DNA of 64,000 nt, from positions 62,001 through 126,000 of the forward strand of contig NZ_JAUHPW010000009.1 of the NCBI RefSeq assembly GCF_030418455.1, given 5' to 3'. The notes under the pieces are model-generated. The model worked only from the letters and a program-made list of their open reading frames with translations, was not told the DNA's origin and made no database searches. Positions 5,104 through 5,222 of this stretch are shown here, in pieces (the first letter of the stretch is position 1; every line of letters starts with the position of its first letter). Source of the DNA: Demequina litoralis (GTDB lineage: Bacteria > Actinomycetota > Actinomycetes > Actinomycetales > Demequinaceae). The position numbers were made by a program, and so were the translations under genes.

Positions 5104-5222
5104 GTGGGAATCCTTAGCTGTGTCGCTGTCCTGTGAGCCGGCACACGAACCGCCGCGACGAGGATCCGGCCTGTTCTAGGCCTCGTCGCGGCAGCTAAGG
5201 AGCAGCGAGCGTGCACGCATGC
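5104..5222 (-). promoter_or_regulatory. leuA leader RNA: leucine-responsive attenuator that hides the ribosome site
   Basis: On the transcript, a continuous 20-base 5' arm (complement of 5181-5200, inside the leader peptide) pairs with two separate 3' arms. Its second half forms 11 perfect pairs with the complement of 5153-5163 (CCTCGTCGCGG). Its first half, containing the Leu codons, forms 10 perfect pairs with the complement of 5111-5120 (CAGCTAAGGA), which contains the whole leuA ribosome binding site. A 32-base bulge separates the 3' arms. A small alternative hairpin, GGCCT-AGAAC-AGGCC, encloses the leader stop codon. A ribosome stalled at the Leu codons would free the leuA start; completion of the leader peptide would let the site close. 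The mechanism is inferred; the pairings are seen. Confidence 0.78.
5176..5220 (-). CDS. leuA leader peptide (MRARSLLLSCRDEA)
   Basis: A 14-codon frame with three consecutive Leu codons (CTG CTC CTT) at positions 6-8, ending in TAG, 73 bases before leuA. A GGTGGA-like ribosome site precedes its ATG. The Leu codons lie exactly in the strand that pairs with the leuA ribosome site, which is the design expected of a ribosome-stalling sensor rather than a functional protein. Confidence 0.75.
   Translation of the reverse strand: MRARSLLLSCRDEA

Follow-up and report, generated by a model that had tools for sequence, protein, structure and literature searches.

A LEU-type leader element upstream of leuA in Demequina litoralis and its codon-swapped relatives at other branched-chain amino acid genes

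The window analyzed here, a 64,000-nt stretch of a Demequina litoralis contig (NZ_JAUHPW010000009.1, positions 62,001 to 126,000), carries leuA on its minus strand, preceded by a short leader frame and by complementary strands that are predicted to form two helices, P1 and P2, and a pseudoknot. The features of the locus are as follows.

5227-5232, minus strand: -10 box TATGGT, 6 nt 5' of the leader ATG
5176-5220, minus strand: leader peptide frame MRARSLLLSCRDEA, 14 sense codons, with ATG at 5220-5218 and the stop codon TAG at 5178-5176
5197-5205, minus strand: sensor codons CTG CTC CTT, the last one, CTT, at 5199-5197, 5 nt 5' of P2
5192-5201, minus strand: P1 5' strand (anti-Shine-Dalgarno), TCCTTAGCTG, exact reverse complement of 5120-5111
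5111-5120, minus strand: P1 3' strand, CAGCTAAGGA, containing the leuA Shine-Dalgarno sequence AAGGA (5115-5111)
5181-5191, minus strand: P2 5' strand, CCGCGACGAGG, exact reverse complement of 5163-5153
5153-5163, minus strand: P2 3' strand, CCTCGTCGCGG, pairing with 5191-5181
5166-5171, minus strand: pseudoknot 5' strand GGCCGG, within the P2 loop, forming a duplex with 5141-5136
5136-5141, minus strand: pseudoknot 3' strand CCGGCT, inside the 32 bases separating the 3' strands of P1 and P2
3361-5103, minus strand: leuA, 2-isopropylmalate synthase, the regulated gene, with ATG at 5103 (NF002991, E value of 1.9e-275, and TIGR00970, E value of 1.2e-258, both over the cutoff)

The 14-codon frame with CTG CTC CTT that the initial annotation had placed upstream of leuA is borne out, and its codons after the ATG are CGT GCA CGC TCG CTG CTC CTT AGC TGC CGC GAC GAG GCC. 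The perfect 10-bp pairing of the Leu-codon strand with the leuA ribosome binding site and the 11-bp inner helix claimed with it are both exact in the window, and the 5' strands of the two helices are contiguous. P1 takes in five of the nine Leu-codon bases, leaving out the CTG codon and the first base of CTC. The same annotation described a compact, simple structure having a split 3' arm and a bulge of 32 bases, a description that is not supported, as the "bulge" holds the 3' strand of a covarying pseudoknot. This H-type pseudoknot (5171-5166 with 5141-5136) has a predicted duplex energy of -11.9 kcal/mol. The window fold has a predicted energy of -54.4 kcal/mol, versus -46.5 ± 3.9 kcal/mol for 200 shuffled sequences (z score of -2.05; 6 of the 200 equally good), which taken alone is weak evidence against a chance fold; comparison with relatives indicates that the strong evidence for the element is its conservation. 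A purely chance fold was rejected, since the relatives conserve the element even though the z score in the window is only -2.05. The nested minimum-energy fold keeps P1 and contains a hairpin (5182-5178/5172-5168) incompatible with the pseudoknot. In this fold, leader bases TCGCTG (5208-5203) also pair with CAGCGA of the first leuA codons (5098-5093), enclosing the leuA start codon.

To compare the locus with its relatives, 110 leuA loci were used, of which 30 came from one search and the other 80 were the best of 586 from another, with some genomes being in both. The element was present at 109 of them, the exception (L088) being leuA in a metagenome bin of Cellulomonadaceae, where no element could be recognized, and the omission of this locus and of 8 repeats among the remaining 109 left 101 distinct cores. 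In all 101 cores, the leader frame has two adjacent Leu codons at most 6 codons upstream of P2 and a stop codon between the P2 arms, whereas in the other two frames adjacent Leu codons occur in 0 and 0 cores and the stop codon in 4 and 6. At codon -2, 5 nt 5' of P2, 101/101 cores have CTT, a codon that makes up 1.0% of the Leu codons in 19 open reading frames of the window and 2.2% of those across the leuA bodies at these loci. Codon -4, outside the CTCCTT core, is Leu in 96/101. In a wider set of 164 distinct leuA-linked elements, codon -2 is always Leu, CTT not being universal there. Leader codons in the P2 region swap amino acids yet keep their base pairs (e.g., GAC to GGC), so that the conserved CRDEA end of the peptide looks like the product of an RNA constraint. 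Nascent-peptide arrest through this end is disfavored for the same reason.

The sequence motif TANNNT lies 5 to 7 nt 5' of the in-frame leader start in 97 of the 101 cores, versus a mean of 4.1 and a maximum of 11 in 500 shuffles. Raw counts for a wider set place the -10 box 6 to 10 nt before the start in 79 of 82 elements and 5 to 7 nt before it in 42; "leaderless" in this set denotes a 5' end of 0 to a few nucleotides. A simple sigma-70 scan of the window found no consensus -35/-10 pair. The position of the -10 box suggests that the leader transcript is leaderless or nearly so and starts at or near 5220.

The initial annotation had proposed that both helices be checked for compensatory changes in relatives, and the two gave different results: P2 covaries well, and P1 past its core does so only modestly. 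In P2, 98.6% of the cells are paired among 57 aligned elements, with 57 two-sided changes versus 13.0 in shuffles, and 0 of 500 shuffles reach the observed value on any of five measures, a result that is inflated by related sequences; 4 of the 11 pairs never vary among the 57 sequences of this alignment (A3). For the pseudoknot, permuted partners equaled the sequences' own partners in 0/10000 trials, and in 0/5000 in each of two further sets. Pseudoknot pairing reaches 93% in a one-register subset consisting of 19 of the 47 sequences in the MAFFT alignment A1, which holds 47 of 51 chosen sequences, four with long loops being excluded, and it falls to 62% once a single register is imposed on all 47 sequences, since clades differ in register owing to a variable spacer.

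The P1 strand pairs with its own Shine-Dalgarno window at -12.2 kcal/mol, versus -11.2 kcal/mol with permuted windows (1/10000) and -10.8 kcal/mol when P1 strands are shuffled; at the median locus, 40% of foreign Shine-Dalgarno windows pair better than the locus's own. Beyond the CCTT/AAGG core, which could be tested at 37 of the 101 loci, there are 1.95 contiguous extra pairs versus 1.48 with permuted partners, a value reached by 59 of 20000 permutations, and P1 extends at least 3 bp past the core at 12 of the 37 loci. Pairing specificity in the relatives exceeds chance modestly. As the main helix of the initial annotation, the 10-bp P1 is exact in the window without being general, and the comparison marks it as a strong example of a pattern that is weaker elsewhere. 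In a subclade of the window's genus (L006 to L009), P1 lies in a different register, CUCGCUGCUU/AAGCAGCGAG, with own P1 energies of -19.5 to -21.7, and a fifth locus (L010) has just -12.8.

A covariance model was built from 57 elements, including three at leuB, five at leuC, and others. It matched 378 of the 394 genomes sampled from the class, in 131 of 138 genera, yet neither the window nor 10 representative loci match any Rfam family, T-box and known leader families included, at the gathering score. In a phylum-wide sample, 48 of 396 genomes were matched, 10 of them outside the class, with two of those matches being weak. Of the 16 unmatched class genomes, nine lack a close LeuA, five of these nine being less than 90% complete, and the other seven have LeuA: one has a clear element (E value of 6.4e-6) and one a weak element (0.009) below the first filter, and the remaining five, all from a single family, are small genomes, in one of which leuA is cut at a contig end. 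The presence of at least two elements per genome is common, being seen in many genomes of the sample. Several genomes have a second element besides the leuA one that again precedes a LeuA-like gene (L156, L157, L158, L163, and L164). For D. litoralis itself, a second copy is unsupported: the best of 12 further matches listed for the genome has an E value of 0.16, and the five that were inspected (L144, L145, L146, L149, and L150) all overlap long open frames.

Besides leuA and its paralogs, the genes linked to the element are leuC (identified by TIGR00170 at L151 and by tblastn elsewhere), leuB followed by ilvE (identified by NF002898 and TIGR01123 at L165 and by tblastn elsewhere), and a gene for a stand-alone LeuA allosteric domain. 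The last is a 131-amino-acid protein (LeuA_dimer, PF08502; L161:610-1002, plus strand) encoded after an element with Leu-Val-Val codons, and tblastn matches to it occur after Leu-Leu-Val and Leu-Val-Val codons at L239 and L248. Sensor codons were tabulated for 82 of the 90 matches in 39 hand-chosen genomes with at least two elements, all matches in these genomes being taken, together with 43 earlier loci; the eight matches set aside lie at contig ends (L198 and L238), have no stop codon between the arms (L250, L251, L253, L254, and L256), or correspond to L255.

Three consecutive Leu codons are found in 90 of 96 leuA/leuC elements and in 0 of 25 leuB-ilvE elements (Fisher P value of 1.4e-20, ignoring relatedness), and Ile or Val codons are found in 19 of the former and 23 of the latter (P value of 2.7e-11, likewise ignoring relatedness). 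Collapsing identical sequences gives 81/87 versus 0/24 for the Leu triplet, and both kinds of element occur together in 22 genomes. Examples of the leuB-ilvE sensor runs are LVLI, VVILI, and LVVI, with Val being encoded by GTA in 21 of 27 cases in leuB elements, and two of the 25 leuB-linked elements (L249 and L252), kept in the counts as exceptions, have no recognizable branched-chain sensor codons. The register is shared as well: a branched-chain codon stands at position -2 in 164/164 leuA, 6/6 leuC, 22/24 leuB, and 3/3 LeuA_dimer elements, and at position -1 in 15/164, 0/6, 4/24, and 0/3, respectively. This swap of codons according to the regulated pathway would be hard to explain unless a ribosome reads them, and the comparison favors a ribosome sensor over the protein-binding model put forward in 2005. 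The anti-Shine-Dalgarno run CTCCTT is absent from leuB-linked elements, which leaves their output step unexplained and, like the two elements lacking branched-chain sensor codons, counts against the attenuator reading set out below.

Between the element and leuB, 16 of 22 leuB-linked loci carry a small frame of approximately 26 to 46 codons with a pattern like ALQxALDRRDNGG, examples being L202:2075-2170 (minus strand), L231:2030-2107 (minus strand), L247:457-555 (plus strand), and L227:1854-1982 (minus strand); a search with four such frames gave no Pfam or NCBIfam match. Six leuB-linked loci (L209, L218, L228, L233, L240, and L245) share a common GCGATCCG stretch downstream of P2, which is possibly part of the leuB-linked output structure.

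These comparisons are best accommodated if the window element is a ribosome-sensing translational attenuator for leucine, a LEU element, a reading to which we give a probability of about 0.78. RNA polymerase would start at or beside the leader ATG, as the -10 box implies. With ample Leu-tRNA, the ribosome would pass CTG CTC CTT and leave at the stop codon, which lies in the P2 loop; P2 and the pseudoknot could then form, with P1 stacking on them, and the Leu-codon strand would mask the leuA Shine-Dalgarno sequence, so that little LeuA is made. When Leu-tRNA is short, the ribosome would wait at the Leu codons and occupy the P1 5' strand, leaving the Shine-Dalgarno sequence free. A constant 5 nt separate the last sensor codon from P2, and this would bring the pseudoknot near the mRNA entrance while that codon is decoded, and a spacing of this kind is similar to that of frameshift pseudoknots. 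A pseudoknot that brakes the leader ribosome is plausible on these positional grounds. Sequestration of the Shine-Dalgarno sequence by the leader-coding strand, a feature of translational attenuators, is present in the window both in the sequence and in the predicted fold. In translational attenuators of the cat/erm type, a stalled leader ribosome likewise frees a sequestered downstream Shine-Dalgarno sequence, but the stall there is due to a drug, whereas in the window it is attributed to uncharged tRNA and the fold has a pseudoknot. Classical amino acid attenuators, such as trp and leu of the enterobacteria, share with the window the regulatory codons in the leader peptide, whereas a simple pattern scan of window positions 4900 to 5420 found no terminator-like site, the mark of a classical transcription attenuator.

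The direction of Shine-Dalgarno release was supported by a masking computation, in which a ribosome was represented by a 30-nt mask and the mean unpaired probability of the Shine-Dalgarno sequence was calculated for 98 of the 101 loci, true pseudoknot energetics not being treated. When P2 and the pseudoknot were imposed, this mean was 0.22 for the free RNA, 0.54 to 0.56 with a ribosome stalled on the three Leu codons, and 0.28 with a ribosome at the stop codon; the stalled state exceeded the free state in 82 to 84 of the 98 loci, and the stop state did so in 64. Nested folding alone gave a smaller effect (0.21 free, 0.38 to 0.49 stalled, and 0.28 at the stop). For the window, the value rose from 0.26 to 0.75 to 0.83 on stalling with the pseudoknot imposed, and nested folding gave 0.19 for the free RNA, 0.74 to 0.76 on the first two Leu codons, and 0.26 when the A site holds CTT. 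A ribosome at the stop codon gave 0.56 in both folding variants. A stricter measure, the joint accessibility of the window's Shine-Dalgarno sequence, was at most 0.03 throughout (0.0004 free, 0.027 and 0.001 stalled, and 0.005 at the stop), because the strands set free paired elsewhere, and it showed no clear release. The masking model, although crude, gives a direction that fits translational attenuation.

The claim of a ribosome-stalling switch acting on translation, also made in the initial annotation, gains support from the recurrence of frame, codons, and P2 in the 101 distinct leuA cores and from codon identities that match the regulated gene, as far as comparative data can speak to it. 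A broader proposal, which we hold tentatively and at somewhat below even odds, is that the LEU element is one instance of a modular ribosome sensor gated by a pseudoknot, in which the knot would brake the ribosome at the mRNA entrance and sharpen the sensing of charged tRNA. Its codons would be exchanged by pathway (Leu at leuA and leuC; Ile, Val, and Leu at leuB-ilvE; Leu and Val at the stand-alone LeuA allosteric domain), and its output arm, an anti-Shine-Dalgarno strand at leuA that is lost at leuB, would be separate and replaceable.

Transcription attenuation, in which the leader ribosome would govern premature termination at an unrecognized intrinsic site, or by Rho when leuA is untranslated, with Shine-Dalgarno sequestration being secondary, is in our judgment unlikely. 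A review on C. glutamicum applies this term to the leucine effect on leuA and mentions a construct with 50% more IPMS activity, part of which is the Ptuf promoter in place of the native promoter and leuL (PMC8709942), and Rho coupling would be compatible with the sequence. Besides the empty terminator scan of the window, two points speak against it: LeuL1 of Streptomyces lividans is reported to have no typical terminator (PMC8079986), and the leuA start lies 41 to 60 nt 3' of P2 in 91 of 101 loci (range, up to 111), as an output through Shine-Dalgarno pairing would need.

Recognition of the pseudoknot by a regulatory protein of the ML1624 family, the proposal of 2005, with the Leu codons being incidental, is considerably less probable still. 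It was argued from phylogenetic co-occurrence (PMC1262725), and the invariant P2 pairs are compatible with it. In the account of the same paper, S. coelicolor mutants (Craster 1999) were at odds with classical attenuation at leuA, and mutations of the Leu codons are taken to be without influence on regulation, data that were counted against the ribosome-attenuator reading. A protein that reads RNA would not need the leader frame and stop codon that all 101 leuA cores retain, and the tracking of the regulated gene by codon identity is not expected from it either. That there is no switch, the Leu run being a by-product of an anti-Shine-Dalgarno sequence, strikes us as hardly credible: CUCCUU does encode Leu-Leu in one frame, and codon -2 is the CTT of that core in all 101 cases, but Leu at codon -4 extends beyond the core, the start, frame, and stop are conserved, and leuB elements without CTCCTT mostly retain branched-chain codons in the same register.

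The translational attenuator favored here is a sound member of an already published family, the LEU element, which Seliverstov et al. described in 2005 at actinobacterial leuA genes, with a Leu-run leader whose Leu codons pair with the Shine-Dalgarno sequence and a pseudoknot (PMC1262725). The remark in the initial annotation that leader-peptide control had been proposed for other actinobacteria was right as to the existence of a proposal and understated its extent, as leader, Shine-Dalgarno pairing, and pseudoknot had all been published. The window shares with that description the position at leuA, the Leu-run open reading frame, the base stem with the Shine-Dalgarno sequence, the pseudoknot, and an alternative hairpin sharing the base stem; from the text, we infer that the pseudoknot strands are the same, and that hairpin 5182-5178/5172-5168 is the alternative hairpin of Fig. 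6 in that paper. The 2005 study placed the element at leuA and one transposase and favored a bound protein, whereas the present analysis extends it to leuC, leuB-ilvE, and LeuA_dimer genes, with codons to match, and adds promoter positions that imply little or no 5' leader and a constant distance from sensor codon to pseudoknot. In one open-licence library, no earlier description of elements at leuB-ilvE or leuC was found, with Craster 1999, Neshat 2014, and Lopatovskaya 2010 being possible sources beyond it. The available parts of a 2016 paper on leader genes do not name leuA, leuB, or leuC (PMC4833913), and the ilvB-II motif of a 2023 paper is a different element (PMC10272879). S. lividans LeuL1, which is transcribed leaderless and contains the run LLLL (PMC8079986), and the leuL peptides of Corynebacterium (PMC5784534, PMC8709942, and PMC4046766) have the same peptide pattern (MRFGLLLLSCRGEGL; MNRANLLLLRRGGSQA) as the window's leader; species and Leu-codon number differ, as does the classification of the Corynebacterium case as transcription attenuation (PMC8709942). 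In S. coelicolor, the transcription factor NdgR is reported to bind in front of leuB and leuCD and, weakly, of leuA (PMC4340878), which amounts to a second layer of control.

The mechanism of the LEU element was left open in 2005, and codons that change with the pathway while the pseudoknot stays point, on comparative grounds, to a ribosome sensor. What the present analysis adds, the codon-swapped relatives and a constant register relative to the pseudoknot, makes this question testable, with the family supplying natural variants for experiment, and is relevant to leucine and valine production in industrial actinobacteria. Further upstream of the leader in the window, CGTACTTAGTACG and CGTACTAAGTACG at 5353-5365 and 5387-5399 are 13-bp palindrome-like, mutually reverse complementary sites that resemble repressor operators and precede a small membrane-protein-like frame at 5422.
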